A stretch of 64,000 nt of DNA from Lysobacterales bacterium (GCA_002722315.1 PBLG01000034.1:1-64000); one strand, 5' to 3'. Shown: positions 14,229-35,730, counted from the stretch's first letter. Translations and numbers: made by a program. The notes: a model not told the origin generated them from the letters alone.

Positions 14229-14236
14229 CTACCCCC

Positions 14237-14644: not shown

Positions 14645-14686
14645 CCAAACCCGCCTCATATCTTCTGTGGCAAGGCCTTCCCAGGT

Positions 14687-14754: not shown

Positions 14755-14756
14755 GG

Positions 14757-14785: not shown

Positions 14786-14874
14786 TTGCCCCGGGAGCTG
14801 GCAAGAAGGCTCGTTCCGGAGAAAGCCCCGGAGCGTGGTTCGAAAAAGTCGAATCAATACAAGGGGTAACCGTC

Positions 14875-17683: not shown

Positions 17684-17748
17684 GCCGAAGGCGAGACCCT
17701 TGATCTTGATTGCGGCCTTTGACTGCTGAAAACTTGAATCTGAAAACT
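17684..17748. repeat. Repeat bracketing the first TA block, right copy
   Basis: GCCGAAGGCGAGACC, then after 25 bases the 25-base block (17724-17748) identical to 15973-15997. Together with the left copy it brackets about 1.7 kb holding both TA pairs. Confidence 0.75.
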
Positions 17749-17757
17749 AAAAAAACC

Positions 17758-19389
17758 GTGCCCGAACTCAGCCTTACACCGAGACACCTCTGCGACCTGG
17801 AGCTAATAACGAACGGCGCCTTCGCGCCTTTGCCCGGCTTCCTGAACGAGCGCGACTACAACTCCGTAGTCAAAAACATGCGCCTGGCGTCCGGCGAGTT
17901 ATGGCCCATCCCCGTAACCCTGGACATCTCCCGAGCCCAGGCCGAGAACCTGACCCCCGGCCAAACCCTCGATCTCCGCGATCCGGAGGGGGTTTTATTA
18001 GCGACGATGTTCGTCGAAGACATCTACGAACCCGACCGCGAACTCGAAGCCGAGGCCGTGTTCGGCACGCTGGACCGCAACCACCCGGGCGTGGCGCACC
18101 TGCTGGAGCGCACGCAGCCGGTCTACGTCGGCGGCAGGGCCGAGCAGGTCGAAGCGCCGATCCACTACGACTTCCCGCACCTGCGCTACACCCCGGCGCA
18201 GCTGAAAGAACTGTTCGCCAAGCGCGGCTGGGAAAAGGTCGTCGCGTTCCAGACGCGCAACCCGATGCACCGGGTGCACCAGGAGCTGACCTTCCGCGCA
18301 GCCAGAGAGATCGAGGCCAACCTGCTGATCCATCCGGTGGTGGGCCTGACCCAGCCCAACGACGTCAACCATTACACGCGGGTGCGCTGCTACGAGCACA
18401 TCATCAAGCGCTACCCGGAGCAGACCACCGAACTGGCGCTGCTGAACCTGGCCATGCGCATGGCCGGCCCGCGCGAGGCGCTGTGGCATGCATTGATCAG
18501 AAAGAACCACGGCTGCACGCACATCATCATCGGCCGCGACCACGCAGGCCCCCGCAACCCCGCCACCGGCACGGGGTACTACGGCCCCTACGAGGCCCAG
18601 GAACTCATCAGCACCCACGCCGACGAAACCGGCATCCAGATGGTGCCGTTCCACGAGATGAAATACTCCGAGGGACGCGCCCAGTACGTCACGGTCGACG
18701 AGCTCAAGCCCGACGAACCGGTACGCGAAATTTCCGGCACCGAAGTCCGCCGCCGCCTGGCAGAAGGCCTGGAAATCCCGGACTGGTTTTCGTATCCCGA
18801 AGTCGTCGCCGAACTCAGAAAGACGCATCCGCCGCGAGCAAAGCAGGGCATCACCATCTTCTTCACCGGCCTGTCCGGCTCGGGCAAATCCACGCTGGCC
18901 AATGCCTTGCAGGTCAAGCTGATGGAACTCGGCGGCAGGCAGATCACGCTGCTCGATGGCGACATCGTCAGAAAGAACCTGTCCAGCGAACTCGGTTTCT
19001 CCAAGGAACACCGCAACCTGAATATTCTGCGCATCGGTTTTGTCGCTAGCGAAATTACAAAGAACGGCGGCATCGCCATCTGCGCCCCCATCGCGCCCTA
19101 CACCGCAACAAGACGTGAAGTGCGAGACCTGATCGAACCCCACGGCGGCTTCATCGAGATCTTCGTATCAACGCCGCTGGAGGTCTGCGAACAAAGAGAC
19201 CGAAAAGGCCTCTACAAAAAGGCCAGGGCAGGAGAGATAAAAGAATTCACCGGCATCTCCGACCCCTACGAAGAACCGGAGCACCCCGACCTGGTCCTCG
19301 ACACCAGCGAAATCCAGCCTGACAAGGCCGTCCAGCAGATTTTGCTCAAGCTCGAGAATCTGGGGTATTTGACAGGCGAGAGCGGCTGA
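17758..19389 (+). CDS. Bifunctional sulfate adenylyltransferase / adenylylsulfate kinase (PAPS synthase)
   Basis: 543 residues from the GTG at 17758; an upstream TTG (17710) would add residues encoded by the flanking repeat. The N-terminal ATP sulfurylase has QTRNPMHRVHQE (about 165-176) and GRDHAGPRNP. The C-terminal APS kinase has P-loop GLSGSGKST (371-379), the LLDGDIVRKNLS loop and a DPYEEPEHPDL tail. The two steps turn sulfate and ATP into PAPS, the donor for sulfotransferases. Its place in a glycan operon with a sulfotransferase at 34.7 kb suggests a dedicated PAPS supply and not sulfate assimilation. It lies directly behind the TA block. Confidence 0.92.
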   Translation: MPELSLTPRHLCDLELITNGAFAPLPGFLNERDYNSVVKNMRLASGELWPIPVTLDISRAQAENLTPGQTLDLRDPEGVLLATMFVEDIYEPDRELEAEAVFGTLDRNHPGVAHLLERTQPVYVGGRAEQVEAPIHYDFPHLRYTPAQLKELFAKRGWEKVVAFQTRNPMHRVHQELTFRAAREIEANLLIHPVVGLTQPNDVNHYTRVRCYEHIIKRYPEQTTELALLNLAMRMAGPREALWHALIRKNHGCTHIIIGRDHAGPRNPATGTGYYGPYEAQELISTHADETGIQMVPFHEMKYSEGRAQYVTVDELKPDEPVREISGTEVRRRLAEGLEIPDWFSYPEVVAELRKTHPPRAKQGITIFFTGLSGSGKSTLANALQVKLMELGGRQITLLDGDIVRKNLSSELGFSKEHRNLNILRIGFVASEITKNGGIAICAPIAPYTATRREVRDLIEPHGGFIEIFVSTPLEVCEQRDRKGLYKKARAGEIKEFTGISDPYEEPEHPDLVLDTSEIQPDKAVQQILLKLENLGYLTGESG

Positions 19390-19410
19390 GTCAGGCGATC
19401 GATTTGGGAA

Positions 19411-20760
19411 ATGAAAAACATGCTTGATGATTTGAAAAGCGATCTCGATTCGAAAGCCGCGTCCATAGCAATCATCGGTCTCGGATACGTCGGCCTTCCG
19501 CTGGCTGTCGAGTTCGCAAAAAAATACCGCGTCATCGGCTTCGATATCAGCGATAAGCGGGTCCGGCAGCTCCAGGCTGGTGCTGACAGCACCCGCGAAA
19601 TCAGCGCAGAAGAGTTGCAGGCTGCAAAGAACCTGACGCTGACCTCCGATCCCGAGGAAATTGCCGACGCCAACATCTATATCGTCACCGTCCCGACGCC
19701 CATAGACGAACACAAACGCCCGGATCTCAGGCCCTTGATATCGGCCAGCGAAACCGTAGGCAAGCTACTGAAGCGCGGCAACATCGTCATCTACGAAAGC
19801 ACCGTCTACCCCGGCTGCACCGAAGAAGACTGCGTCCCAATCCTGGAGGAAGAATCCGGATTGAAGTGTTCTTTTGATTATCCGGAAACCGCAAACCCGA
19901 AACCCGAAACCGCCGGCGAATTCGCCGTAGGCTATTCGCCGGAAAGAATAAACCCCGGCGACAAGGAACACCGTCTCCCAAGCATCAAGAAAGTCACCAG
20001 CGGCTCGACACCTGATGCCGCGGAGTTCATAGACGCCCTCTACCGGGGAATCATCACCGCCGGCACTCATAAGGCCCCAAGCATCAAGGTCGCCGAAGCG
20101 GCAAAAGTTATCGAAAACACCCAGCGCGACGTCAACATCGGCCTGATCAACGAACTGGCCATGCTGTTCGGCAGGCTGGGGCTGGACACCAGCGCGGTAC
20201 TCGAAGCCGCCGGTACGAAGTGGAACTTCCTGCCGTTCCGCCCCGGCCTGGTCGGCGGCCACTGCATCGGCGTGGACCCGTACTACCTTACACACAAGGC
20301 GCAGCACATCGGCTTCCACCCCCAGATGATCCTGGCCGGCCGGCGCACCAACGACGGCATGGGCGCCTACGTCGCCGGAGAACTGATCAGGCTGATGGCG
20401 AAAAAAGGCGTCTACCGCCCCGGCGCAAGAGTGCTGGTGCTTGGCCTGACCTTCAAGGAAAACTGTCCCGATCTCAGAAACACAAGAGTCGTAGACGTTA
20501 TCGCCGCCCTGAAGGACTACAACCTCCTAGTCGACGTCCACGACCCCTGGGCCGACGCCGACGAGGCAAAAGCCGAATACGGCCTGGAAATGACCGTCGA
20601 GCCCGAACACGCTTCTTACGACGCCGTAACCCTGGCTGTGGCCCACAACGAATTCCGAGACTTGGGAAACCCCGGAATCCGTCATTGGACCATCGAAAAC
20701 GGCGTCGTCTACGATCTGAAGCACATCCTCCCGGATTCGATCACCGACGGCCGGTTGTAG
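19411..20760 (+). CDS. tviB: TviB-like UDP-N-acetylhexosamine 6-dehydrogenase
   Basis: 449 residues of the UDP-glucose/GDP-mannose dehydrogenase family, TviB/WbpO branch. It should oxidise UDP-GlcNAc (or UDP-GalNAc) to the uronic acid using two NAD+. It has the Rossmann motif [10 protein letters not shown], catalytic Cys285 in [11 protein letters not shown] and the C-terminal [14 protein letters not shown]. An ATG at 19420 is an alternative start with better ribosome-site spacing. Residues about 156-170 ([14 protein letters not shown]) look like an insertion encoded by a tandem GAAACCCGAAACC-type repeat, just before the conserved [10 protein letters not shown]. The next gene is the TviC partner. 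Confidence 0.9.
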
Positions 20761-20789
20761 CCTTTTCCGATTACCGACCACCGACTAAC

Positions 20790-21848
20790 GTGACTTCCCA
20801 AGCCAGCCAACCAGCAATCTCTCAAAGATATGAAGAGGTGAAGGCCCAGCTACGCAGCGAGCCAAAGACGTGGCTAATCACCGGCTGCGCCGGCTTCATC
20901 GGGTCGAACCTGCTGGAAGCCCTGCTGAAGCTGGATCAAACGGTTGTAGGCCTGGATAATTTTTCCACCGGCTACCAACACAACCTGGACGAAGTAGCAG
21001 GGCTAGTCACGCCGGAGCAGTGGGCTCGATTCAATTTCATCGAGGGCGATATTCGCGATTTGGAAACATGCCAAAAGGCATGTGACGGCACCGATTATGT
21101 TCTCCACCAGGCGGCCCTCGGGTCGGTACCACGTTCGCTCGCAGACCCGATAGCTTCGAATCAGAGCAATATCGACGGATTCCTGAATATGCTGGTCGCG
21201 GCCCGCGATGCCAATGTGGCTAGCTTCACTTACGCGGCAAGCAGTTCCACTTACGGCGATCACCCGGCACTGCCAAAGGTCGAGGACCGAATCGGCATGC
21301 CTCTGAGCCCCTATGCAGTTACAAAGTACGTCAACGAACTTTACGCACACGTGTTCGCTCTGAACTATGGCTTTCGCGCGATCGGGCTGCGCTACTTTAA
21401 CTGCTTCGGCCCGCGCCAGAACCGCAACGGCCCGTACGCTGCTGTAATTCCCAACTGGATTGCAGCGATGATCCAGGACGAGCGGGTCTATATCAACGGT
21501 GACGGCGAGACGAGCCGTGACTTTACGTTTATCAAGAATGCAGTTCAGGGCAATCTGCTGGCCGCCACCGCTGATGATGCTGCCAAGGCTGACGTCTACA
21601 ACATGGCAGTCGGCGACCGCACGACTTTGAACGACCTGTTTGTCTGCATCCGTGACGCGTTGAGCGAATGCGGCACCACTTACGATTTCGAGCCGGTGCA
21701 TCGTGAATTTCGCACCGGCGACGTGCGCCACTCGCTGGCCAACGTCTCCAAAGCCGCCGGTGCCTTGGGGTATGAGCCCACACACACCCTGCGACAGGGG
21801 TTGAAGGAGGCTACGCCTTGGTTCGTGAACGCGCTGGGTGGGTCGTGA
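20790..21848 (+). CDS. tviC: TviC/WbpP-like UDP-N-acetylglucosamine(uronate) C4-epimerase
   Basis: 352 residues from the GTG at 20790; the frame stays open upstream but the family N-terminus (RYEEVKAQL, then [14 protein letters not shown]) fits this start. An extended SDR epimerase with TGCAGFIG, a serine-rich AASSSTYG strand and the YxxxK pair in [11 protein letters not shown]. With TviB it should interconvert GlcNAcA and GalNAcA (or the parent sugars) as UDP forms, as in Vi-antigen and B-band O-antigen synthesis. It is 29 bases downstream of tviB. Confidence 0.88.
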
Positions 21849-21860
21849 GGCGAGACTGAA

Positions 21861-23264
21861 ATGACCGAGACCTCGCCGCTGATTACGCTCTATGTGCCAT
21901 CGCGCGACTATGGCCGCTTTCTTGGCCAGTGCCTGCGCAGCATCGCAGCGCAGACTATGCAGGACTGGGAGCTGATTATCTTCGACGACGGCGCCGAAGA
22001 CGACACGCTGGAAGTGGCCTGCGACTTCCAGCGCGGACGCGAGGATCTCGTGCGCATCGTCGAGCACCGATCGGGGCAGGGACTGAGGGCTTGCGCGAAT
22101 AAGGCGCTGGAATTGGCACGCGGCACCTACATCATGCGCGTCGACGCCGACGATTACCTCGATGAGAACGCGTTGCTGGTCCTGTCCAGCTATCTCGAGG
22201 CGCATCCTGAGGTCGGCCTCGTCTATCCGAATTGGATCTATGTATCCGAGCGGGGCGACGTACTCGGGCTGGAGACGCGTAAGAAGGTCGCTACCGAGGC
22301 CAAGGTGCTGGATCTGCCCGCGCATGGCGCATGCACGATGATACGCAAGCGGGTGCTGAAGGCAATCGGCGGTTACGACACGCGCTTCGAGTCGCAGGAT
22401 GGCCACGAGCTGTGGATGAAGACGCTGCACCGCTTCGGCGTGGGCAACGTGCAGACGCCGCTGTTCTTCTACCGCAAGCACGACGCGTCGATGTCGTCCG
22501 ATGCCGACCGGATGTTGGCTGGTCGGCGCGAAATAAAGAGTCGTATCGCTGGGGGCATGACCGGCCCCGTGGCACCGCGCATAGCCGCGATCCTCCCCGT
22601 CAAGAACACCTATTCTCATCTGCCCAACATAGCGCTGGAGCCGCTGGCCGGCCGGCCATTGATCGATTACGCGTTGGAGACCATCCGTGCTCTTGATGCC
22701 TTTGACGTCTGTCTGGTTTCGGCTGACGATGACGCGGTCGTGGCGCACTGCGAGCGCGCCGGCGGTGTGCTCACTCACCTGCGCGACCGACACCTGTCCG
22801 ACCCCGACGTCCATCTGCCCGAGGTTATCGAGGAAGCTGTCGAGACACTGGAGCGACAGCACGATATTCATCCCGATATTGTCGTAATGCTCAACGTGCA
22901 CTGCCCGCTCACTCGGTCGGAGCATATCCGCGAGGCGCTGGACACACTGATGGTCTACAACGTTGACCAGGTGCTGAGCACCTACGAGGATGAGGAACTG
23001 CATTTCCGGCACGGCCGGTCCGGCCTCGAGGCGTTGAATATCGGTGCGTTGCGCGGCCTCCGACTGGAGCGGGAGGCGCTGTTCGCATGGAACGGCGCGG
23101 TGCAGGTCATGTGGCGCGACGTGCTGCGCAGCGAATCGCTGTTTGCCGGGCGCATCGGCCACATCGTGATGTCCCGCAGCGAAAGCGTGCAGGCCAAGCA
23201 TCCACCAGAACGGGAGCGGATCGCGCGACAGCTTGAACAGGCCCGAGGGAACACCGTCGAATGA
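21861..23264 (+). CDS. Fusion: GT2 glycosyltransferase + nucleotidyltransferase-like domain
   Basis: 467 residues. Residues 1 to about 225 are a GT-A family 2 domain (ITLYVPSRDYGRFL, LIIFDDGAED, the DxD-like RVDADDYLD near 93-101, and GGYDTRFESQDGHELWMK). Residues about 238-460 resemble acylneuraminate cytidylyltransferases (AAILPVKNTYSHLPNIALEP, LAGRPLIDYALETI, VVMLNVHCPLTRSEHI). The CMP-sialate synthetase signature PARGGSKGIPxKN is replaced by PVKNTYSHLPNIA, so catalysis is uncertain. It directly precedes the NeuB-like gene (4-base overlap). The fusion could join activation and transfer of one acidic sugar. The second half could instead be an inactive regulator of the separate cytidylyltransferase at 27.98 kb. 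Confidence 0.75.
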   Translation: MTETSPLITLYVPSRDYGRFLGQCLRSIAAQTMQDWELIIFDDGAEDDTLEVACDFQRGREDLVRIVEHRSGQGLRACANKALELARGTYIMRVDADDYLDENALLVLSSYLEAHPEVGLVYPNWIYVSERGDVLGLETRKKVATEAKVLDLPAHGACTMIRKRVLKAIGGYDTRFESQDGHELWMKTLHRFGVGNVQTPLFFYRKHDASMSSDADRMLAGRREIKSRIAGGMTGPVAPRIAAILPVKNTYSHLPNIALEPLAGRPLIDYALETIRALDAFDVCLVSADDDAVVAHCERAGGVLTHLRDRHLSDPDVHLPEVIEEAVETLERQHDIHPDIVVMLNVHCPLTRSEHIREALDTLMVYNVDQVLSTYEDEELHFRHGRSGLEALNIGALRGLRLEREALFAWNGAVQVMWRDVLRSESLFAGRIGHIVMSRSESVQAKHPPERERIARQLEQARGNTVE

Positions 23265-24328
23265 CCTTTGCGTCGAGCAGCACCGGTGATGACGCGCGCC
23301 AGCCGTGGCAGGGCCGTAACGGCCCCCTTATGATCGCCGAGATCGGCGGCAACCACGAAGGAGACTTCGATTATGCCCGCCGGCTCACCGACCTGGCCAT
23401 CGAATCCGGCGCCGACTGCATCAAGTTCCAGATCTATACGGGCGATACTCTCGTCAGCCCGGTCGAATCACCCGACAGGAACGCGCATTTCCGTCGCTTC
23501 GAGCTGTCGCCCGAACAGCACGTCGCACTGGCGCGGCAGTGCCGGGAGGCCGGCGTAGGTTATGCGGCATCGGTGTGGGATCTCTCGGCGCTGGACTGGA
23601 TCGATGAATACCTGGATTTCTACAAGATCGGATCCGGCGATCTAACGGCATATCCGGTGATCGCTGAGTTCGCGCGCCGCGGAAAGCCGATCGTGCTATC
23701 TACGGGTTTGTCGACGGCCGCCGAAGTCGTTGAAACCGTTGAATTCCTGCGCAAAGTCAACTCAGTCTACGCCGGTGATTCAAATCTCGCCGTACTGCAG
23801 TGCACGTCGATGTATCCGTGCGTGGAAGAAGATGTGCATCTTGCTGCTATGAATGAACTGGGCCGGCTGACCGGCGCTGCAATCGGCTATTCCGATCACA
23901 CCTGCGGTACGCTTGCCCTACTGGCAGCCGCCGCCCGCGGCGCGCAAGTGCTCGAGTTCCACTTCACGGACGGGCGGGAAGGGAAGACATTTAGAGACCA
24001 CAAAGTATCGCTGACGCGCGACGAGGTGCGCGAGTTTGCCTCCCGGGTGGCCAGAGTGCGGACGCTTCTTGGCAACGAGCACAAGGCACCGACGCGCTCC
24101 GAAGTCGAGAGTGGGCACGTCGAGAGTTTTCGCCGAGCGCTTTACTGCAATCGCGACCTCGCTGCGGGCGAACAGATCCGCGGTGAGGACTTGGTCGCGC
24201 TTAGGCCGAATCGAGGTGTGGATGCTCGCTCTCACGACGCGGTTGTTGGCCGCGTTGCCAAGTACGATACGGAAGCACTTTCAAGCCTCGCCCTCGATAA
24301 TTTCTTGATAGAGGACGATGAGCAATAG
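23261..24328 (+). CDS. NeuB-family nonulosonic acid synthase with SAF domain
   Basis: 355 residues. NeuB/PseI/LegI enzymes condense phosphoenolpyruvate with a hexosamine-derived six-carbon sugar to make a nine-carbon acidic sugar. Visible features are MIAEIGGNHEGDFDYARRL, CIKFQIY, YKIGSGDLTAYPVI, STGLSTAAEVVE, CTSMYP, GYSDHTCG and a C-terminal SAF (antifreeze-like) domain from about 285. The usual EKHFT motif reads EFHFTDGREG here, so the Lys is missing and an unusual substrate is possible. No NeuC, LegG or PseG-type precursor gene is next to it. It is coupled to the GT2 fusion upstream. Confidence 0.85.
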   Translation: MTFASSSTGDDARQPWQGRNGPLMIAEIGGNHEGDFDYARRLTDLAIESGADCIKFQIYTGDTLVSPVESPDRNAHFRRFELSPEQHVALARQCREAGVGYAASVWDLSALDWIDEYLDFYKIGSGDLTAYPVIAEFARRGKPIVLSTGLSTAAEVVETVEFLRKVNSVYAGDSNLAVLQCTSMYPCVEEDVHLAAMNELGRLTGAAIGYSDHTCGTLALLAAAARGAQVLEFHFTDGREGKTFRDHKVSLTRDEVREFASRVARVRTLLGNEHKAPTRSEVESGHVESFRRALYCNRDLAAGEQIRGEDLVALRPNRGVDARSHDAVVGRVAKYDTEALSSLALDNFLIEDDEQ

Positions 24329-24339
24329 GACTGACGTTG

Positions 24340-24891
24340 ATGTCGCCCCCCCGCGATAAGAGCGTCCACTGGCTGTGGGCTCCACACGAAAGACTACTTT
24401 CGTCCTGGGCCCCGTTCCAAAGTGTGAGCATTGCAGATAGCTTCCGATTGGCAACGGTTGAGCCCGCTCAAGTGAATGCCTTCATCGAATTCGAAAATAG
24501 CGTAAGGTCAAGACGCGTCGGCGCACCGCTAATAGAGCATCTTCAGTGTTTTGGCCGTCATTTAGCCTTCGTTTATCTTTCTGGCCAAAAGGTGGTTGGC
24601 ATTCAGCGTTTCCGCTTGTATCACGAATTCGATCCTGGCTATAGAACGCTGCTGAATGCCTATTTCCATATCGATCCGACATTCCAATCAAGGGGCCTGG
24701 GAGCTACCTTCCTGCGCGTGGCGACACGTTATTTCCAAGAGCAGGGCGGGGTCGATGCTGTAGCGTCGGAAGCATGGCCGGAGAATGAAGCTAGCGTACG
24801 TTCCACGCTCAATGCTGGATTTGAGCTTTCCCAACGCTTACCGAATGGCAAGAGCGTGTTCATGAAGCCGCTCGGCAAGGCCGGAACGTAG
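24340..24891 (+). CDS. GNAT-family N-acetyltransferase
   Basis: 183 residues from the ATG at 24340, 9 bases after AGGA. The GNAT core is visible in the second half: a strand (TLLNAYFHIDPTFQ), the acetyl-CoA loop QSRGLGATFLRVA and a following VDAVASEAWPENEASVRSTL, then GFE. It probably acylates an amino sugar intermediate of the NeuB pathway, as PseH and LegH do. The actual substrate cannot be read from the sequence. Confidence 0.75.
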   Translation: MSPPRDKSVHWLWAPHERLLSSWAPFQSVSIADSFRLATVEPAQVNAFIEFENSVRSRRVGAPLIEHLQCFGRHLAFVYLSGQKVVGIQRFRLYHEFDPGYRTLLNAYFHIDPTFQSRGLGATFLRVATRYFQEQGGVDAVASEAWPENEASVRSTLNAGFELSQRLPNGKSVFMKPLGKAGT

Positions 24892-24916
24892 CCATTAATT
24901 GCCACAGATAACGCAC

Positions 24917-25594
24917 ATGAATCTTGCCCAGACGAATCTCCAGCTATACCTGCAGATGGCCAAAGCAGGGTACCTCGACGATGATCTTGTCCGTGCCAAT
25001 GAAGCTTACTTCCTTGCGGCCGAATGCACGTCAAGGCTATTCCGTGGGTCGGGCAAGCCGTTCATCTCCCATCTCGTTGGTACTGCTAGTGCGCTGGTTT
25101 ACGAGCAGCGTTCGATAGATGTAATTACGGCTGCGCTCCTGCATGCCGTGTATCAAGATCGAGTGCCGTTTGCGGGGGGTGCATCGCTTGATGCCCGCCG
25201 TCGCGTGATCAGGGCGCGTTTTGGAGACGCCTGTGAGGAGTTGGTCGACGGTTACCACGAGTTCGAGTTTGAGCGGCTAGATCAGTACGGCGGCTTAGCC
25301 CTTCAAGAACGCTCCGAGGTGGTTTTCATTCGGCTTGCTGACGAACTGGAAGATCTATACGACTACGGTTTGCTGATGCACGGTAAGGACGGCGAAGATG
25401 CGTCGGTTCGAGGCACAGCAGACTGGCGTCTGATCCAGAAGGCGCGCATTCTGCCCGAATTGCTTCGCGCCGCCCATGCTGTCGGTGCGGACAGCCTGGC
25501 CAATGCCATTCATTACTGGGCGGAGCGCAGCCGCAGTGTTTGCTGGCCCGCCGGCTTGCGAAGCGAACGCTACACCAGCTACGAACTCGAATGA
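24917..25594 (+). CDS. HD-domain (RelA/SpoT hydrolase-like) protein with a missing metal ligand
   Basis: 225 residues from the ATG at 24917. The layout matches the RelA/SpoT HD hydrolase: His52 (FISHLVGTAS), a central LLHAVYQD at 74-81 and Asp142 (FIRLADELEDL). The central HD dyad reads His76-Ala77, so one of the four expected metal ligands is gone. No synthetase, TGS or ACT domain is present. It may be catalytically dead or may act on another phosphorylated compound. Its stop overlaps the next start by 4 bases, placing it firmly in the nonulosonate-like island. Confidence 0.65.
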   Translation: MNLAQTNLQLYLQMAKAGYLDDDLVRANEAYFLAAECTSRLFRGSGKPFISHLVGTASALVYEQRSIDVITAALLHAVYQDRVPFAGGASLDARRRVIRARFGDACEELVDGYHEFEFERLDQYGGLALQERSEVVFIRLADELEDLYDYGLLMHGKDGEDASVRGTADWRLIQKARILPELLRAAHAVGADSLANAIHYWAERSRSVCWPAGLRSERYTSYELE

Positions 25595-26655
25595 CTCACA
25601 TTGACCTGAGGTCGGTAAAAGCTTGCCCATTGTGCGGGAGCCCTGAGGCGAATGACTATCCGCCCGCGCCGAGCAACCTCTATTCCGAGAAGCTGGCGGG
25701 GTTGTTGGGCATCGCCGAATCACGTCTTCTTGATACTGTCAGCAACGTGCAGTGCCAATCGTGCGACCTGATCTACAAGCGGCAGTGGTTTCAGCCCGAG
25801 ACGCTGGGCGCGCTGTTCTCCGATTGCGTCCCCCTTCACCCCAAGGGCTGGGACGCTGTATCAGGGCGTTTTAGCGCTGACAACTTCCGACGCGAAGCTT
25901 TTCAATACAAAGAAGCACTCGACCAGCAAGACGAGGCCCTCATCGCGCGCTACCGCCGCGCATTGAGATCCATCATCGATTCTATGCGCGACCAGAGCGA
26001 ATCTGCCCGCCTGGACCGGTTGCGAAAAGCTGTCGAGGAGGGCGATGTCGACTCGCTGCTCGCACAGCATGAATGGCTCACCGAGCAGATGGACGAAGCG
26101 GCGCCCTATTCGCGCTTTGCCGGGTTCTCTTCGCCGGATCTTTGGCGATATATGGAAGAGAGAGCCGGTTCCATTCACTTGTACGGGGAAGCGGGCTGCC
26201 CGCTATGGGGACTGCTGCGGCATGCTGACGAAAAAGACGTTACAGCCATTTTCGTTCAGCGTGACGAGCCGAATTACTGGGGGACCGGCTGCCGCGTTGA
26301 TGGCCAAAGCTGCCGGAAGGCACTGCTGGGCCAAAGCGGAATCAGTGCCCGGCAATGGCACGACGCCTGGAACGCTCGTCTTGACGTATTCGGATTGTTC
26401 CAGTACCTCGATCACCTCGAGCAGCCGGATCAGTTCATTGCCGAGGCTGCTCAGCGGGCTCATGCATTGGCGATTATCCTTGACGATGTGAACGAGCCGC
26501 CGGCGGTCCAGCACTTTACCGGCTGGCCCGAAACCGCAATTGAAACGCTGGCGAAACGCCATGGCTTTCAAGTGCACTCGGATTTCGACGCCATACGCGC
26601 TTCCGGAAATCATCTCTATCTGCTTGTGCGCGACCAGAACACGAAGACGGCGTGA
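25591..26655 (+). CDS. Zinc-ribbon plus methyltransferase-fold-like protein
   Basis: 354 residues. The N-terminal CPLCGS and VQCQSCDLIYKRQWF form a four-cysteine zinc ribbon like that at the front of sugar C-methyltransferases. A helical insert (residues about 95-170) and a Rossmann-like second half follow. The SAM motif I position reads IHLYGEAGCPLWGLL, and the later LDVFGLFQYLDHLEQPDQFI resembles the motif after the SAM site. Motif I is degenerate, so methyl transfer is uncertain. It is translationally coupled on both sides. Confidence 0.6.
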   Translation: MTHIDLRSVKACPLCGSPEANDYPPAPSNLYSEKLAGLLGIAESRLLDTVSNVQCQSCDLIYKRQWFQPETLGALFSDCVPLHPKGWDAVSGRFSADNFRREAFQYKEALDQQDEALIARYRRALRSIIDSMRDQSESARLDRLRKAVEEGDVDSLLAQHEWLTEQMDEAAPYSRFAGFSSPDLWRYMEERAGSIHLYGEAGCPLWGLLRHADEKDVTAIFVQRDEPNYWGTGCRVDGQSCRKALLGQSGISARQWHDAWNARLDVFGLFQYLDHLEQPDQFIAEAAQRAHALAIILDDVNEPPAVQHFTGWPETAIETLAKRHGFQVHSDFDAIRASGNHLYLLVRDQNTKTA

Positions 26656-27986
26656 TGGGAGCCAAGACAATTGAAGGCCTAGAGCAGACCGAAGCCGTCG
26701 GCAGGCCGATTCATGACCTGGCGCGCCGCTTGTGGCCCATCAACCGCAGCATCTCTGGTCCCGGCCTGCGCGAAACCCTGAACATCCTCCGCGAGCTGCT
26801 CCCGGCGATGCGCCTGATTGAAGTGCCCTCCGGCAGTCAGGTACTTGATTGGATCGTGCCGGACGAGTGGGAAAACAGCGAAGGTTGGCTGGAAGGTCCG
26901 GATGGAAAACGAATCATCGACCTCGCCGACAATAACCTGCACGTAGTCGGCTACTCCGAGGCCGTCGATCGCACGATGAGCCTGGAGGAGCTGCAGCCCC
27001 ACCTGCACTCACTTCCCGACCAGCCGGACGCGATTCCCTACGTAACCTCGTACTACAACCGCACCTGGGGTTTCTGCTTGACCGAAAGCCAGCGGCGAGA
27101 GCTTCGGCCCGGCGAATATCATGCCCGCATCGAGGCACGTCATTTTGCGGGATCGATCACCGTGGGGGAGCTGATTATTTCTGGAGAAAGCGACCGCGAG
27201 GTGCTGCTATCGACCTACTGCTGCCACCCGTCGATGGCCAACAACGAGCTATCGGGGCCATGTTTGACCGCTTTCCTTGCGCAGTGGATTCAGGGGCTTG
27301 AAAACCGCCGTTACACATATCGAATTGTTTTTGTGCCCGAAATGATCGGTTCCATTGCCTATCTGCATCACAACATCGACGATATGAAAGCCAGGACGGT
27401 TGCCGGATTCAACATCACGTGCGTTGGCGACGAGCGCATCTGGTCCTATCTGCCGTCGCGTGCGGGGAACACATGGGCCGATCGTGTTGCCCGACACGTA
27501 CTGACGCACTCGACTGATGGTTTCACCGAATACACCTGGCTCGATCGCGCCAGCGATGAGAGCAACTACTGCGCGCCAGGAGTCGATCTGCCCGTGGCCA
27601 GCATCATGCGTTCGAAATATGGCACCTATCCCGAGTACCACACATCGAAGGATGATCTCGAGCGCGTAGTCTCACCCCGCGGGCTCGGGGAGAGCCTTCA
27701 ACTCTACCAAGGCGTGATCGAGGCCCTGGAGGCCGACTGCATCCCACGAACGAAAGTGCTGGGCGAACCTCAGCTCGCGCGGCGAGCGCTGTACCCCTCC
27801 ATCAGCAAGAAAGGCAGTACCGAAGGCGTGCGGACCATGCTCGATCTGCTGTCGCTGGCCGACGGCCAGAACTCGCTGTTGGCCATTGCAGATTGTTGCC
27901 GCGTGCCGATCGGACACTTGGTGCCGATCGTGGATCAATTGGTTGATGCGGATTTGCTTGACCGGTTTCCATTGGAGCATGGGTGA
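26655..27986 (+). CDS. DUF4910/DUF2172 metallopeptidase-like protein with winged-helix tail
   Basis: 443 residues. It starts at an ATG overlapping the previous TGA by one base. The N-terminal block (LWPINRSISGPGLRETLNIL, EVPSGSQVLDW, NNLHVVGYSEAV) and the M28-like peptidase fold (STYCCHPSMANNELSG, VPEMIGSIAYL, DRASDESNYCAPGVDLPV, YPEYHTSKDD) define the family. His, Asp and Glu residues at these places are the likely zinc ligands. The last 70 residues form a winged helix. The family recurs in glycan and natural-product clusters. Deacylation or peptide-bond hydrolysis on an amino-sugar intermediate is a reasonable guess, but its substrate is unknown to me. Confidence 0.75.
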   Translation: MGAKTIEGLEQTEAVGRPIHDLARRLWPINRSISGPGLRETLNILRELLPAMRLIEVPSGSQVLDWIVPDEWENSEGWLEGPDGKRIIDLADNNLHVVGYSEAVDRTMSLEELQPHLHSLPDQPDAIPYVTSYYNRTWGFCLTESQRRELRPGEYHARIEARHFAGSITVGELIISGESDREVLLSTYCCHPSMANNELSGPCLTAFLAQWIQGLENRRYTYRIVFVPEMIGSIAYLHHNIDDMKARTVAGFNITCVGDERIWSYLPSRAGNTWADRVARHVLTHSTDGFTEYTWLDRASDESNYCAPGVDLPVASIMRSKYGTYPEYHTSKDDLERVVSPRGLGESLQLYQGVIEALEADCIPRTKVLGEPQLARRALYPSISKKGSTEGVRTMLDLLSLADGQNSLLAIADCCRVPIGHLVPIVDQLVDADLLDRFPLEHG

Positions 27987-28714
27987 CCAGCGTGTGCTCA
28001 GAACGTTCCAGAGTCAAAAGCGTCGGAATCGTGATATTCGCGCGCATGAGTTCATCGAGGCTGCCAGGCAAGATGTTGATGCCTTTCGGCCAGGGATCGC
28101 TTCTGACCCGAGTCATTCGCCGCGCCACGACGCTTGAGGTGCCGGTCGTAGTCGCAACGTCCACATGCTGTGACGACGATCCGATCGTGCTTGAGGCCGA
28201 GTCGCGCGGCGTAGCCGTACATCGTGACGCGCTGAATGACGTGCTTGGCCGCGCGCGTTCCGCGGCCGAGGCTTTCGATTTCGATGCAATTGCTCGGTTG
28301 TGCGGTGACCGCCCGTTCTTCCCGCTTGACGACATGTCCCGAGCGCTGGATTGCGTTCGAAGAGCCGGCGGCCCCATACCGGATCTGGTGACCACGCATA
28401 GCCCTGTGCCGTGCCCGCCCGGCCTTACCACAGAAATTGTTTCGACTGCAGCACTAGCTCGTTCGAGTCGATTGGCTACTCGGACCGACCAGCGTGAGCA
28501 CATGACGCGGTTCCTGTACGAAAACATGGAAGATTTTGAGTGCGTCGAACTTCCCACAAAAATGCACATTCTTTCTGACCAGCGTTTTGCAGTAGACACA
28601 GAGGCCGATTATCGCCGCCTGAGCAGCGTAGCTGCTAAAAAGCCTGACATTGCGCTTCCACCGCAAGCTGCCGCGGAGCTTCTACGGAAAATGAAACTCG
28701 GTTTTTCTGGATGA
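27983..28714 (+). CDS. SpsF/NeuA-like cytidylyltransferase
   Basis: 243 residues from the GTG at 27983 (4-base overlap). A nucleotidyltransferase fold with VGIVIFARMSSSRLPGKMLM at the N-terminus (R-x-S-S-x-R-L-P-x-K, the nucleotide loop), then ATSTCCDDD and CGDRPFF, which supplies the catalytic Asp. SpsF-type enzymes activate acidic or unusual sugars with CTP. It is probably the real CMP-sugar synthetase of the island, because the domain fused to the GT2 upstream lacks this loop. Confidence 0.78.
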   Translation: MTSVCSERSRVKSVGIVIFARMSSSRLPGKMLMPFGQGSLLTRVIRRATTLEVPVVVATSTCCDDDPIVLEAESRGVAVHRDALNDVLGRARSAAEAFDFDAIARLCGDRPFFPLDDMSRALDCVRRAGGPIPDLVTTHSPVPCPPGLTTEIVSTAALARSSRLATRTDQREHMTRFLYENMEDFECVELPTKMHILSDQRFAVDTEADYRRLSSVAAKKPDIALPPQAAAELLRKMKLGFSG

Positions 28715-29682
28715 GTCGCCGCGTTGTCGTCGACCGCATGGACATCGTTGAGGCCGATCAGTTATGGGCCAATTCGCCCCATGCCACGGGATTTACTCGT
28801 CCAGCTTTACTCGCCCGGCTCTCGGATCGCGTCGAGTGGTGGGGTGCATGGCGGTCGCAGGATCTGGTCGCAGCATGGCCGGTCTGCTTCCCGTACGGTG
28901 ACAACGCAGGGCGCCCGATTTTCGCCTATTACGTCGGACCGATGCTCGGAGGCGAAGCTTTTGGATTCAAATATCATCGATACTGGGCGATCCAGCAGCA
29001 AGCGTTGAAAGCGATGATTTCAACGTTTGTCCGGGAGTATCGTGATGTGGTGTTCTCCTTGCCTCCCGGATTTACGGATCTACGAGCCTTTCAGTGGAGC
29101 GAAGCCGGCGGCGAGAGTTTGTTCGAATACAAACTTCGCCATACTGCTCAGATCGACGCCTTGGACCGAAGCGATGAAGAACTGTTCCAGCAGATGGCAC
29201 GCAATCGCAAGAGGGATATCGTCGCAATCGAGTCGAAACCGCCTACGCGGACTGACGACTGGTCCCTGGATGAGTTGCATGTACTGCACTATGAACCGAT
29301 GCTTCGCCAAGGTGTGCCCTTCTCGCCTAATCGAGCTGAGGCGTTTACCCGGATTGTTTGTGCGGCGCGAGACGATTTCGGCCGGGTGCTTGCGTTTCGC
29401 GATCCGGAGAACGGCCGGCTGGCATCCGTAATCGTGATGATCTACGGTCGCGACGACGCCAACAACGTGCTTTGTGTGTCCGATGAGGCCTGGAGGTCGC
29501 TAGGGCTTACGGCATGGACAACTTACCAGGGCATTCAGGCAGCCCGCGCTGACGGACTGAGATTGTTCGATTTCAACGGCGCCAATAGTCCGAAGCGCGC
29601 CGCGGACAAGCACGCATATGGCGCCGAAACGACCGTTTATTTCAATTGCTCGTTGGGAAGCGCGATGGATGAAAAAGGGTAA
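28711..29682 (+). CDS. GNAT/FemAB-like acyl- or aminoacyl-transferase
   Basis: 323 residues, coupled to the previous gene by a 4-base overlap. The layout is a double GNAT fold of the FemAB/BioF2-like type: an N-terminal module ending in AYYVGPMLGG, then ELFQQMARNRKRDIVAIESK (typical of the FemAB core), and a C-terminal LASVIVMIYGRDDANNVL, then ARADGLRLFDFNGANSPKR. Such proteins add acyl or aminoacyl groups to amino sugars. It is probably the last enzyme of the nonulosonate-like island. Confidence 0.7.
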   Translation: MSRRVVVDRMDIVEADQLWANSPHATGFTRPALLARLSDRVEWWGAWRSQDLVAAWPVCFPYGDNAGRPIFAYYVGPMLGGEAFGFKYHRYWAIQQQALKAMISTFVREYRDVVFSLPPGFTDLRAFQWSEAGGESLFEYKLRHTAQIDALDRSDEELFQQMARNRKRDIVAIESKPPTRTDDWSLDELHVLHYEPMLRQGVPFSPNRAEAFTRIVCAARDDFGRVLAFRDPENGRLASVIVMIYGRDDANNVLCVSDEAWRSLGLTAWTTYQGIQAARADGLRLFDFNGANSPKRAADKHAYGAETTVYFNCSLGSAMDEKG

Positions 29683-30796
29683 TTTGAAGCTCACGGCCGC
29701 ATCGGCTGTAGTCCCAGTGGTAATCGTGTCCTTTCCGAAAGGGCTTGGTGGACCGCAGAAATGGCTTGAGGAAATATTGCCCGAGTTAATGCGGCGACCA
29801 GGTCTTTCGGTGGAGACTTGGTACCCTCGTGGGCCGTTTACGGGCCTCAGCGGCAAGGTCCGGCTGTACAGGCTAGTCAAGCGCCGGCTGGAGGGGCAAG
29901 CTCAAAAGGTTGTCTATTTATCACTGGATCTTGACTTTGCCGCGCAACTTTTGTTTTGCTTAAGGTTGATCGGCTTCAAACGAATCATTATCCATGCCCA
30001 TGCAGGCCGGTTTACAGCCCGTTATAGGTTCCTCCTATGTCTGTATCGGTTCCTGGCTCGCCGTGCCGCGGCCTGGATAGCGGTTTCCGAGCAAGCCGGC
30101 GAGGCAATGTTTGGCAGGAGTTTTCGCTCGCGCGGCAAGATCATTCCCGCGAGTATTGATTTTGTGAGGTTGCTCGGATGCAGCAACACCGCTGACAGTG
30201 AAGAACGTGTTGTCATGCCCCGTCCCGAGCATGGACGACTCTTTGCATTCATCGGTCGGCTTTCGTTAGAGAAATGCGCTCACACAGCAATCGAAAGATT
30301 TGCGCGGCATTGCGATGACTTTTCAGATGATCGGCTAATCATCGTCGGCGATGGCCCGGAACGGGCGCGACTCGAACAGTTGGCAACGTGTCTGCTTCCC
30401 GCCGGCGCGTTTCGCTTCACCGGTGCAATCGAAAATATCGGCTGGCTGATGAGAAATGAAGTCGATTGCGTGTTGGTTCCCTCATTGTTCGAAGGGCAGT
30501 GCAGAGTGGTTGCGGAGGCGCAGTTTTTCGGCGCAACAGTGATTGCCAGCGATTCGGTGCCAGATATCGCTTTCCTTGACCCGACAACTGCCATTCGTAT
30601 TCCTGTCTCCGAGCCAGAGCGCTGGCGTCAGGCCATGGCGGGTGTGCAGGTCAATTCATTCAACGCAGACATGTCCCGCGCGCGCCAGATGGAAAACAAC
30701 GCGCCGATTGGGATGAGCCGGGTCATCGAGCGGTTCGAGTGCGTTGTTCGCCGGGTGGGTGGCCCGGCAGTCGCCCAGACCAGCGCGAGACACTAA
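29669..30796 (+). CDS. Glycosyltransferase family 4
   Basis: 375 residues from the ATG at 29669, which overlaps the previous gene by 14 bases. A GT-B fold with N-terminal VIVSFPKGLGGPQKWLEEIL and C-terminal donor-site strand GRLFAFIGRLSLEKCAHTAI, IIVGDGPERARLEQL and the E-x7-E region FEGQCRVVAEAQFFGATVIA. It should add one sugar of the repeat unit at the cytoplasmic face. It ends tail to tail with the reverse-strand pyruvyltransferase gene (4-base overlap of the two ends). Confidence 0.83.
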   Translation: MKKGNLKLTAASAVVPVVIVSFPKGLGGPQKWLEEILPELMRRPGLSVETWYPRGPFTGLSGKVRLYRLVKRRLEGQAQKVVYLSLDLDFAAQLLFCLRLIGFKRIIIHAHAGRFTARYRFLLCLYRFLARRAAAWIAVSEQAGEAMFGRSFRSRGKIIPASIDFVRLLGCSNTADSEERVVMPRPEHGRLFAFIGRLSLEKCAHTAIERFARHCDDFSDDRLIIVGDGPERARLEQLATCLLPAGAFRFTGAIENIGWLMRNEVDCVLVPSLFEGQCRVVAEAQFFGATVIASDSVPDIAFLDPTTAIRIPVSEPERWRQAMAGVQVNSFNADMSRARQMENNAPIGMSRVIERFECVVRRVGGPAVAQTSARH

Positions 30797-31779
30797 CCGG
30801 GGTTGCCGTCGGTGATGAATCTCTCGCACCGTTCGATCAGCGGTGGAACAAGTCGCTTGTACGTATCCGGATTTCGGGGCGAAAGGTAGGGCGTAATTTT
30901 CTTGTTCATTTCGAAATTGGCGCTGAAGCGGCCTGTCTTACTATCGAAACGCACCACGTTGAACAGCTCCAGCATACCGCCAAAGCGGCAGTTCGAGACC
31001 GGATCGCCCGCGAACGTGTCGACAAAAATAACAGGCGTTCCGAGCGCAAGGCATGGAAGCGCACAGTGGATGCGAGAGGTCACGACGAGTTCGGCAGTTG
31101 CATACTCTTTTAGAAGACGTCGCGCTTTGAGCATCTTTGACGGATTGTCAAGACCGTCGTTCCAGGGCTCTTGCGTGCGTTGGCGAGAACATCTCCGAAA
31201 TATGTGGCTGAGCAACCGCGAGCGATGCCACTGGCGTTTTCCGGTTTTGAAGAGCCAGCCGTGCTGAATGGAACGGAGAAACAGGCGCCAGTCGCGCAGA
31301 TAGGTCGGCAGGTGCGGATAGCGATAAAACAAGTCAACCTCATAGACTCCGTCACGCTCTACAGACTCTGGTTCACGCAACCAGTCAAGCGTCAAGGTCA
31401 GACAGCCAGAGAAATATGCATCCACACCATGCGAGCGAAGAAAATTTACAGTTCCAAGATCCCTGCAACCGATAGGCTCATGCCTCTTGAGATATGCGAT
31501 GCTTTGAGGCGAGGAAAAGTCCTTTTTGGCAAGCTCGTTAATGTGAAAAGAAACAAACAACGGCGTGATTGCCGGGGCGGGGACCCAGTCAGCGCTGTTG
31601 TGAACGAACCATCCGTTCATGATGAGCTTGACGGGGGGGCCGTCGTAGTATGCGAGCTCCTCGCGATTCAGGTGAAAGTCCACACGCGGAAGAAATCGCG
31701 ATGCAGCGATGCTCTGTACATGGTCGCCGAGGTTGTAGGTGTTTCGCCCTTCGATGTAAGAAAGAACTGCGTATTTCAT
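30793..31779 (-). CDS. Polysaccharide pyruvyltransferase family protein (reverse strand)
   Basis: 328 residues from the ATG at 31779, chosen because the family N-terminus is MKYAVLSYIEGRNTYNLGDH; the frame is open further upstream without family similarity. Other hallmarks are FLRSHGVDAYFSGCLTLTLD, ELVVTSRIHCALPCLALGTP and VIFVDTF. Members transfer pyruvate from PEP to make acidic ketals on sugars. It is the only gene on the minus strand between 14 and 64 kb. The 105-base gap to the divergent gene at 31885 must hold its promoter, but I do not see a consensus one. Confidence 0.82.
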   Translation of the reverse strand: MKYAVLSYIEGRNTYNLGDHVQSIAASRFLPRVDFHLNREELAYYDGPPVKLIMNGWFVHNSADWVPAPAITPLFVSFHINELAKKDFSSPQSIAYLKRHEPIGCRDLGTVNFLRSHGVDAYFSGCLTLTLDWLREPESVERDGVYEVDLFYRYPHLPTYLRDWRLFLRSIQHGWLFKTGKRQWHRSRLLSHIFRRCSRQRTQEPWNDGLDNPSKMLKARRLLKEYATAELVVTSRIHCALPCLALGTPVIFVDTFAGDPVSNCRFGGMLELFNVVRFDSKTGRFSANFEMNKKITPYLSPRNPDTYKRLVPPLIERCERFITDGNPG

Positions 31780-31884
31780 GAGTGGTCGTCTTTTGATATC
31801 AGGGGGTATCTGCTTGCGGCCCATGGCAATGCTTAAACGCTTGGTTCCGGGTGACTGCGCACTTTTTGCAGTGCGGGTTCTGAA

Positions 31885-33360
31885 ATGAATCATAGAAGCA
31901 ATGAGGCAATCTTTCAACCTGCTGAGAGGCGTTTCTCGCGCAAACGCAGGATTCTTCTTTGGGCGGCAGGTGTGGCACCCGGGTTCGAAGATGAACTCGA
32001 GCGGCATGACTACGAAATCGGACTCCAGATCACCTATGATGAGAACGTCAAAGGCGCCGTTTCACACTGGCAGTTTCACACCGGAAATGTCCAAGGCGCT
32101 GGATCCGCTCCCAAGCAAAAGCCTGTCGCACTCTCGCGGTCATTCTTTGAAACTTATCATCGATGTATTTCTCGGCTGCAGTTTTCTCCCATGCTGCATA
32201 CGCCGATCTGCCAGGCGCCCGGCGCGATTCGTGCCGACAATGTCGATGATTGGATGCAACTCCACGTGTCGACTGCCAATGCAGTTCTGGATAATGCGAA
32301 TCCGGATGAAATCTGGTTCCATACACCACCACATGTCGGTATCGACAATGTGCTGGCCGAAGTCGCGCGGGGTCGGGATATTCCAGTAATCATATGCACG
32401 AGTCTGCCAGTATTTGGTAAGTTCGATTATCACTTCCAAGGGGAGATCCAGATTCCTCGGCTTGCCGATGGCTGGGCGAAGACCGAGTTCGATGATTTTT
32501 CCCCGGATCTTTTCTATATGGCAAACGTTATCAGTGGCCAGCTTCGTGAGCCGGCGCCTTCGTGGTTATCCTTGGTCCGGAGTCGGTCGCTGGCGCATTT
32601 GGTAGACGCTGTCTATCGAGGCGCGTTGAAGCGGGACTGGGCGCTACCAATGGCGGTAATGGACGCCATTTTTGAGCGGGATCGTTCGCTGGCCTTATGG
32701 CGTTATTCGCGGCGTCGCCGACTGCGAAAGAACCGGAGACGACTCAAGACGGCCCGGATCGATGAGCTCAGGGCGCCGTTTGTCTATTTTTCCTTGCACT
32801 ACGAACCGGAAGCAATCGTCTCCTCGGTTCCGTATCCTTTTTGCAACCAGGTCAACGCGATGGAGGCGTTGCTGGCCATCGCGCCATCGGATTGGATTGT
32901 CGCAGTAAAGGAAAACCCCAAGCAACGCTTGATGTTTCGCGACGATGCATTCTTTGAGCGAATCAAGGCCAATCCGCGACTCGTGTGGCTTAGCCCTGAA
33001 ACAGAAAGCAGCGAAGCGGTTCGAAACGCACGTGCCACCGCCAGTCTCGCTGGGACGGCCGGATACGAGTCCTTGCTGGCCGGCAGGCCGTGCATCTATT
33101 TCGGAAATGCATGGTACCGGCACCTGCCCGGCGCCTTTGCATACGATCCGGGCCTCGATCTGCAGGCCATCTGTCAGCAGCGTATCGACAAGCAGGCAGT
33201 CTCGGAGTGCGTCAATCAATTTTTTTCGACGAGACCGGATGGAATGATGCACCCGCGGAATCGGAATCTCGCACCAGCCGATGTCGATCTCAACGAGGTG
33301 GCACGGCAGACCGCGCGATCAATGACTCGGATCAGTAGGCATGGCATTGAACACCGTTAG
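31885..33360 (+). CDS. Capsule-synthesis-like protein (KpsC/KpsS-type C-terminal domain)
   Basis: 491 residues, no signal peptide or membrane helix. The N-terminal part is not recognised. The C-terminal region (about 290-440) has the pattern of Capsule_synth proteins: FVYFSLHYEPEAIVSSVPYP, DWIVAVKENPKQ, ARATASLAGTAGYESLLAGR and PCIYFGNAWYR. KpsC/KpsS proteins are Kdo transferases; here a transferase of another acidic sugar is equally possible. It overlaps the next gene by 20 bases. Confidence 0.7.
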   Translation: MNHRSNEAIFQPAERRFSRKRRILLWAAGVAPGFEDELERHDYEIGLQITYDENVKGAVSHWQFHTGNVQGAGSAPKQKPVALSRSFFETYHRCISRLQFSPMLHTPICQAPGAIRADNVDDWMQLHVSTANAVLDNANPDEIWFHTPPHVGIDNVLAEVARGRDIPVIICTSLPVFGKFDYHFQGEIQIPRLADGWAKTEFDDFSPDLFYMANVISGQLREPAPSWLSLVRSRSLAHLVDAVYRGALKRDWALPMAVMDAIFERDRSLALWRYSRRRRLRKNRRRLKTARIDELRAPFVYFSLHYEPEAIVSSVPYPFCNQVNAMEALLAIAPSDWIVAVKENPKQRLMFRDDAFFERIKANPRLVWLSPETESSEAVRNARATASLAGTAGYESLLAGRPCIYFGNAWYRHLPGAFAYDPGLDLQAICQQRIDKQAVSECVNQFFSTRPDGMMHPRNRNLAPADVDLNEVARQTARSMTRISRHGIEHR

Positions 33361-34668: not shown

Positions 34669-35730
34669 ATGAACTCGTGGGATACCCAGGCTTCTTGTGA
34701 TTTGCGGTCGACTGTTTATGAAGAACCACCGCAGCTTGTATTCCTGACCTACATCGCTCGGTCGGGATCCACATTTCTTGCCCACCAACTCGATAGTCTG
34801 CGCGATGTCAACGTGTCGCTCGAAGCAGCCTTGCCAGACGGTTTTGTGCGGCCGGAATTCGAGATCTCAAATGTGTCGGCACTGGATGGGTTGATCGACG
34901 CCCTCTACGGTCGCCGGGGCCTCTTCAGCGACTCTGTCGATGCCCAAATGGCAAAGTTCCGTTATTGGGGAATTGACGAGAACGTATTGCGATCACGGCT
35001 TATGGCTGAGGAATGGCCGGTATCGTTTCCGAGATTACTCCGAGTTGCTCTCGATCTGCATTTTGTGGGCCGTCCCGCCCCAATGTCAGTCTACAAAATG
35101 GGGAGCTGTCTGGGGAAATGGGACACCTTGCACGCATTGTTCCCGGAAGCAAAAGTTTTATTTATAAAGCGTGACCCAAGAGCCATCTATGCCTCGCAGA
35201 AGCGTGCCAAAGCAAGTACGACGGGAAAGTCGATGGCTGGCTGCGTAGAGAACTTTAGCCAGGGATACCGGCAGATAATGAATGCTGAACGGCGTGTGGC
35301 TGGCGAGGAATGGTTCCATCACTTGCGGTACGAAGATCTCGTGAACGATACACACGGGGAGTTGGCCCGGATTGCGAAGTTCCTTGGTATATCGCTGGAA
35401 AGACACGATAGTGTAACGGACTATTTCAGCCGCATTCCTCAATCTCAAAGACACCTGCATCCACTCGTCGCGAGAGCGCCTGTTCACCAGAGAGTGACTC
35501 GATGGAGGGGAGAGCTTCCCATGCGAGAGGTAAAGCGAATAGAGATTGTTGCGTATGACTCGATGCGAGAAGACGGCTACAGATTCCAATACCCTGTTTA
35601 CACAGTTATTTACACTATCGCGCGTCCCGTCGGGCGTGCGTTTCGACTGGGTTCAAGACGGATGCGACGATTGTGCCTGCTAGCTGGAACGTGGCTAATA
35701 GCTTGGTCGCGCCGTATCTTTACACGGTGA
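34669..35730 (+). CDS. PAPS-dependent sulfotransferase
   Basis: 353 residues. The 5-prime phosphosulfate loop is ARSGSTFLAHQL (30-41) and the 3-prime phosphate motif is VLFIKRDPRAIYASQK (about 162-177). LRYEDLVNDTHGELARIAKF is the usual third block. The enzyme should move sulfate from PAPS to a sugar hydroxyl; the PAPS synthase 15 kb upstream in the same operon supplies the donor. The C-terminus is basic and hydrophobic. The gene is visibly more A+T-rich than its neighbours, suggesting separate acquisition. The following 198 bases hold nothing I can identify. Confidence 0.85.
   Translation: MNSWDTQASCDLRSTVYEEPPQLVFLTYIARSGSTFLAHQLDSLRDVNVSLEAALPDGFVRPEFEISNVSALDGLIDALYGRRGLFSDSVDAQMAKFRYWGIDENVLRSRLMAEEWPVSFPRLLRVALDLHFVGRPAPMSVYKMGSCLGKWDTLHALFPEAKVLFIKRDPRAIYASQKRAKASTTGKSMAGCVENFSQGYRQIMNAERRVAGEEWFHHLRYEDLVNDTHGELARIAKFLGISLERHDSVTDYFSRIPQSQRHLHPLVARAPVHQRVTRWRGELPMREVKRIEIVAYDSMREDGYRFQYPVYTVIYTIARPVGRAFRLGSRRMRRLCLLAGTWLIAWSRRIFTR

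Follow-up and report, generated by a model that had tools for sequence, protein, structure and literature searches.

The window analysed here, a 64,000-nucleotide stretch of DNA from Lysobacterales bacterium (GCA_002722315.1, PBLG01000034.1:1-64000), carries on its + strand, at 21861-29682, an island of eight genes that probably forms a module for the synthesis, transfer and decoration of a cytidine monophosphate (CMP)-activated ulosonic acid of a surface polysaccharide. The precursor would be non-canonical, and the acid either similar to ketodeoxynonulosonic acid (Kdn) or an unfamiliar one. The module includes a NeuB-like synthase of a distinct clade, an SpsF-type cytidylyltransferase, and a glycosyltransferase fused to a NeuA-like domain. 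Predictions of nonulosonic acid (NulO) type commonly rest on NeuB phylogeny and precursor genes, and this clade falls outside them. Identifying its substrate would uncover a minimal Kdn pathway or else a new acidic sugar.

A distinct clade of NeuB-like synthases

The synthase gene (23261-24328, +) was assigned by family match, alignment and tree, and its product has a C-terminal SAF domain. A scan of genome contigs with the window NeuB protein yielded 24 loci, to which two genomes of the same order were added. In the resulting tree, 22 sequences including that of the window form one branch (support 100/97). Its members are 48-64% identical to the window protein, and every other row of the alignment is at most 39% identical to it. 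The clade is spread over Pseudomonadota, Bacteroidota, Verrucomicrobiota, Bdellovibrionota, and Fidelibacterota (Marinimicrobia). The window protein scores 252.1 bits against the TIGR03569 NeuB equivalog model, below the cut-off of 399.65, and 191.7 bits against PseI, below the cut-off of 340.25. The clade synthase is the sole NeuB found in six genomes (G000, G436, G450, G688, G690, and G691; e.g. Blastochloris, Thiocapsa, Catalimonadaceae). In plasmids, no NeuB exceeded about 37% identity, and the zinc-ribbon protein of the island had no homologue.

With residues numbered as in N. meningitidis NeuB (NmNeuB), E25, K53, Q55, K129, S132, Y186, S213, H215, E234, H236, and R314 are retained in the clade wherever the sequence is complete, and S110, W112, D134, R246, and H248 are present in all 22 members. 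Position 235 is F, V or Y in the clade, vs R or K in 27 of the 27 other NeuB rows. The active-site contacts of NmNeuB include T110, F112, N184, F288, and R314, and Arg314 positions the N-acetyl group (PMC6795526). From these residues it appears that the clade keeps the phosphoenolpyruvate (PEP) and metal chemistry and has an altered aldose pocket.

Two other kinds of NeuB-like protein were noted. A planctomycete NeuB (L022, 1255-2280; 39% identity) is sister to the clade and shares SIWD and FRDH, while its other signature sites differ. In the family of the window, many genomes carry a different, long NeuB-like protein (L037, L038, L040-L049; frames of about 500 aa, 24-28% identity) that lacks R314.

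Partners of the synthase

The SpsF-type cytidylyltransferase (27983-28714, +; family match and alignment) has intact SxRLPGK, GD, and DTxxD motifs, and in a 17-sequence alignment the N-terminal SxRLPGK and the C-terminal acidic motif are likewise intact. SpsF lies near the synthase in all clade loci with a long enough flank except L014. In L005, L008, L009, and L016 (purple bacteria and Thalassotalea) SpsF and NeuB form a single reading frame, that is, a natural cytidylyltransferase-synthase fusion.

The first gene of the island (21861-23264, +), described in the first-pass annotation as a fusion of a GT2 glycosyltransferase with a nucleotidyltransferase, is indeed such a fusion in family matches and in fold, but the CMP-synthetase motifs have been lost. 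An AlphaFold model from 15 sequences has a predicted local distance difference test score (pLDDT) of 84.9. In a structure search with this model, the N-terminal half (GT-A) matches the Leptospira glycosyltransferase 6p61 (Z 26.6), and residues 236-464 resemble the synthetases of CMP-NeuAc, CMP-Pse, and CMP-Kdn (Z 24-26). The conserved columns are mainly in the GT-A half (DDG, DADD, QDGxELW). The NeuA motifs RxGSK..KN (also given as RxxSK..KN), QPTSP, and DxD are replaced in the C-terminal half of the window protein and its relatives. Because SpsF keeps its own motifs and those of the NeuA-like half of the fusion are replaced, SpsF is likely the CMP-ulosonate synthetase. The NeuA-like half is likely a binding domain whose catalytic motifs have been lost.

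The fusion is full-length in 20 of the 22 clade loci, the copy in L006 being broken or truncated, and is absent from the three loci outside the clade whose flanks are long (L023, L024, and L026), a small control. Many clade loci also have a hexapeptide acyltransferase and a zinc-ribbon S-adenosylmethionine (SAM) methyltransferase. In L009 (Thalassotalea loyana) a match to Alpha-2,8-polysialyltransferase (14199-15137) lies a few genes 3' of the clade NeuB, and a BLAST relative is placed alike in L007; this gene is consistent with a CMP-ulosonate donor. Small MptE-like/DUF115-type proteins with a GNGPSL motif, possibly transferases, recur near the clade NeuB in Bacteroidota (L012, 7839-8750; L006, 5645-6529; L014, 13128-13994).

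Precursor-sugar genes

The island has no NeuC-, PseB-, PseC- or PseG-like gene, as the first-pass annotation had stated, and the absence extends genome-wide at curated cut-offs. None of the NeuC, PseG, PseC, and PseB models reaches its cut-off in the genome of the window or in G436, G450, G687, G688, G690, and G691. For NeuC no match exceeds the cut-off in eight genomes, the best in the genome of the window having 98.5 bits vs 235.9. With regard to LegB/LegC/LegG and SpsM/SpsC/SpsG, the PseC-, PseG-, and NeuC-type models remain below cut-off (dedicated LegB/LegC/LegG models were not run). In the Thalassotalea genome G689, contig C1 carries a second NeuB and, within 9 kb of it, PseB and PseC matches that exceed their cut-offs and a PseG-like gene that does not; the clade NeuB is on contig C7, apart from this Pse cluster. 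A GlcNAc (N-acetylglucosamine) 2-epimerase, considered as a source of N-acetylmannosamine, was not found in the genome of the window, which is fragmented and 85% complete. These results support a non-canonical precursor.

Co-conservation within the order

Co-occurrence of the genes had been proposed as a check on the island. The gene order recurs in a different family within the order: in G436 the glycosyltransferase fusion, NeuB, HD-like, zinc-ribbon, DUF4910, and SpsF genes are collinear (41-65% identity), followed further on by FemAB-like (31%), GT4, and Capsule_synth genes, so that of the eight only the GNAT gene is missing. G450, from the genus of G436, carries the corresponding genes across two contigs, as far as seen. 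The zinc-ribbon protein occurs in exactly three of 299 genomes of the order, namely those with the clade synthase (the genome of the window, G436, and G450). These three, and no others, have the specific HD-like protein at 398 bits or more; the next best matches (59.6 bits) are longer frames resembling ordinary SpoT/RelA. Strong DUF4910 matches occur in those three and two others. Identical sets of three in 299 would arise with a probability of about 2e-7 per gene if genomes were independent, and of about 3e-4 per gene when counted by genera, two of the three carrier genomes sharing a genus. The island is a co-inherited set.

A first phylum-wide search for the zinc-ribbon protein returned only the window. 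The synthase, the DUF4910 protein, and the zinc-ribbon protein are all absent from five other genomes of the genus of the window, and because of this the island, variable within the genus, has probably been transferred. The base composition of the window was also examined: the first 9 kb have a G+C of about 0.66-0.69 and the polysaccharide region beyond (9000-64000) one of mostly 0.53-0.65, and the fall from about 0.68 also fits transfer.

Gene layout, accessory proteins and surroundings

All eight open reading frames listed for the island are present in order and coupled, and most do overlap, as had been claimed: stop and start codons share 4 bases at five of the seven junctions. The overlaps read ATGA at the junctions of the glycosyltransferase fusion with NeuB, of the HD-like with the zinc-ribbon gene (with ATG at 25591 as start), and of SpsF with the FemAB-like gene, and GTGA at those of the zinc-ribbon with the DUF4910 gene and of DUF4910 with SpsF. 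Spacers of about 8 and 7 bases separate NeuB from GNAT and GNAT from the HD-like gene, respectively. Pfam and NCBIfam scans gave GT2 and CTP_transf_3 for the first gene, NeuB and SAF for the synthase, and then GNAT, HD_4/DUF6817, DUF4910 with DUF2172 and HTH_47, CTP_transf_3, and Acetyltransf_6, in agreement with the NeuB-like, GNAT, DUF4910/DUF2172, SpsF-like, and FemAB-like labels assigned earlier.

The GNAT acyltransferase (24337-24891, +; family match) has a TTG start. The HD_4/SpoT-like protein (24899-25594, +; family match and homologues) had been called degenerate, and this is borne out: HA replaces HD and LAD is kept in all three homologues, none of which keeps the metal-binding HD pair of HD/SpoT hydrolases. 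The zinc-ribbon protein (25591-26655, +; CPLCG...CQSC), whose C-terminal part is possibly degenerate methyltransferase-like, matches no Pfam or NCBIfam model. A homologue also has the CxxC...CxxC. The AlphaFold model of the protein from two sequences has a pLDDT of 47.5. Its profile aligns with the zinc-ribbon methyltransferases of clade loci over the ribbon only (10% probability) or over a C-terminal stretch (1%). The DUF4910/DUF2172/HTH_47 metallopeptidase-like protein (26652-27986, +; family match) is a homologue of CA_C2195 (3k9t; PMC4000134), with a match of 304 bits. Das et al. (PMC4000134) describe the DUF4910 family as lacking the usual peptidase active site and sitting with spsE and spsF, and propose amino-sugar transacylation or deacylation for it. 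The FemAB-like/Acetyltransf_6 protein (28711-29682, +; family match) is a putative acyl- or aminoacyl-transferase. Acyl or aminoacyl decoration through GNAT, Acetyltransf_6, and DUF4910 is thus plausible.

Upstream, at 17710-21848, the packed run goes on with Sat/CysC, a uridine diphosphate (UDP)-hexose dehydrogenase (19411-20760, +), which by reading we take to be TviB/WbpO-like and whose family is also found beside the clade synthase in L005 and L009, and a nicotinamide adenine dinucleotide (NAD)-dependent sugar epimerase (20757-21848, +), presumably TviC/WbpP-like, again by reading. Downstream, the run continues into an extensive polysaccharide locus that has numerous glycosyltransferases together with a sulfotransferase, an ABC (ATP-binding cassette) transporter, and a flippase-like protein. 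A Capsule_synth/KpsC-like protein (31885-33360, +; weak match, conserved in G436) is a candidate acidic-sugar transferase; the start of its gene is overlapped by a polysaccharide pyruvyl transferase gene (30793-32007, -). A bifunctional ATP sulfurylase/adenosine phosphosulfate (APS) kinase (17710-19389) and the sulfotransferase (34669-35730) occur in the one locus, which suggests that its polysaccharide is sulfated. Large antisense reading frames (e.g. 21003-23201) overlap well-supported genes and were rejected as shadows driven by GC content.

Proposed pathway and alternatives

From its retained PEP and metal residues, the NeuB-like enzyme is expected to form a 3-deoxy-2-ulosonic acid by condensation of PEP and an aldose. 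The aldose would not come from NeuC- or Pse-type enzymes, which did not appear at curated cut-offs, and therefore would probably be a sugar of central metabolism or a lightly modified one, the simplest case being mannose leading to Kdn. Judging from its intact motifs and the SpsF-NeuB fusions, SpsF would activate the product with cytidine triphosphate (CTP). The GT2/pseudo-NeuA protein, by its fold and constant linkage, may hold or channel the CMP-sugar and transfer a sugar, which suggests an unfamiliar handling of CMP-sugars. Among the weakest steps, the GNAT, FemAB-like, and DUF4910 proteins may add or trim acyl or aminoacyl groups, and the zinc-ribbon and HD-like proteins may be accessory. 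The product would then become part of the polysaccharide that the flanking glycosyltransferases, sulfotransferase, and export genes build.

Several observations weigh against this pathway. SpsF is not adjacent to the synthase in L014, and the GT2 of L021 lacks the NeuA-like part. The alignment outgroup holds only one characterised NeuB, we know of no clade member whose substrate or product is known, and GT2 enzymes using CMP-sugars are, to our knowledge, not known either. A PseB/CapD-like dehydratase gene lies 3' of the synthase in several Bacteroidota loci (best PseB score 345.8, below cut-off), and a modified UDP-sugar precursor is possible there. A precursor gene could also be missing from the incomplete genome of the window, although the same absence recurs in other genomes.

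As to the product, the first-pass annotation had placed the set outside the known sialic, pseudaminic, and legionaminic pathways and suggested a new acidic sugar. The unmet NeuB, PseI, NeuC, and Pse cut-offs agree with the former point, but Kdn, a known NulO, is still allowed, because S. marcescens makes Kdn from a neuA and neuB capsule locus (PMC9000132). It is quite possible, if short of probable, that the pathway is an ordinary Kdn pathway, in which the synthase acts on mannose or mannose-6-phosphate, SpsF makes CMP-Kdn, and only the enzyme branch is new. Besides the S. marcescens precedent, the clade genomes without a precursor hydrolase above cut-off point this way, as does the lack of a hexosamine-specific precursor gene conserved across clade loci. 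However, the NeuB of S. marcescens has an additional isomerase domain not present in the window protein of 355 aa, Arg314 with its role in N-acetyl positioning is retained, and the clade pocket is unlike that of NmNeuB and the other NeuB rows. A new acidic sugar is possible, and a synthase clade of new specificity may be tentatively entertained: the skeleton would be neither neuraminic acid (Neu), Kdn, pseudaminic acid (Pse) nor legionaminic acid (Leg), SpsF would activate it, and the glycosyltransferase would use its dead CMP-synthetase as a donor-binding domain.

It is unlikely that the product is a standard NulO (Neu, Leg or Pse) with precursor enzymes that the assembly lacks or that diverge too far for the models to find. 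The 85% completeness, the 98.5-bit NeuC-family match, and the PseB/CapD-like genes near some Bacteroidota clade members would fit such a product, but seven clade-bearing genomes lack a match at cut-off, the separate Pse cluster of Thalassotalea argues against redundancy with the clade locus, and the synthase scores far under the equivalog cut-offs of NeuB and PseI. An acid of another chain length (e.g. a heptulosonate or one like Kdo, 3-deoxy-D-manno-octulosonic acid), serving as a linker or cap rather than as a nine-carbon repeating-unit sugar, is rather improbable. The best NCBIfam models of SpsF are of the KdsB type, a KpsC-like protein is conserved nearby, and the synthase pocket is changed. 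Yet SpsF matches KdsB weakly, at 47 bits and far short of the cut-off, there is no indication of chain length, and the domain fused to the glycosyltransferase resembles NulO synthetases.

Comparison with known systems

The island was first described as having unfamiliar enzymes, but it is not new in every respect, since Das et al. (2014; PMC4000134) describe DUF4910 beside SpsE, SpsF, acyltransferases, and methylases as a modified-carbohydrate neighbourhood. Like that neighbourhood, which has spsE, spsF, glycosyltransferases, an N-acetyltransferase, and a methylase and for which a modified surface sugar with possible transacylation was proposed, the window links DUF4910 to SpsE-, SpsF-, glycosyltransferase, and acyltransferase genes. 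The C. acetobutylicum example differs from the window in its epimerase, ATP-grasp, and acyl carrier protein genes. The part of that paper available to us does not describe the HD-like and zinc-ribbon proteins, the GT2/NeuA fusion, the FemAB-like protein, or the synthase clade. A literature search of incomplete coverage did not find the gene combination described.

With the B. subtilis sps Leg pathway, in which SpsF is required downstream of Leg synthesis (PMC7439481), the window has in common a NeuB-type SpsE, an SpsF cytidylyltransferase, and a GT-A glycosyltransferase. In B. subtilis, however, the precursor is made by SpsM, SpsC, SpsD, and SpsG, whereas the genome of the window has no PseG- or PseC-type gene above cut-off. 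The S. marcescens KL1/KL2 loci likewise pair a synthase with a cytidylyltransferase and contain no canonical precursor pathway, but there NeuB has an extra COG1082 domain and is accompanied by NeuA (PMC9000132), in place of which the window has SpsF, the glycosyltransferase fusion, and decoration genes. The window synthase resembles NmNeuB (1xuu/2wqp) in its NeuB barrel and SAF/antifreeze-like domain, with 30% identity; T110S, P111V, F112W, E134D, R235F, P246R, and F288S set apart the window protein and all or most clade members. Carbohydrate neighbourhoods with DUF4910, SpsE, and SpsF are thus already known as a general kind; what is new here is the missing precursor route, the signature of the clade, the SpsF-NeuB fusions, and the GT2/pseudo-NeuA fusion.

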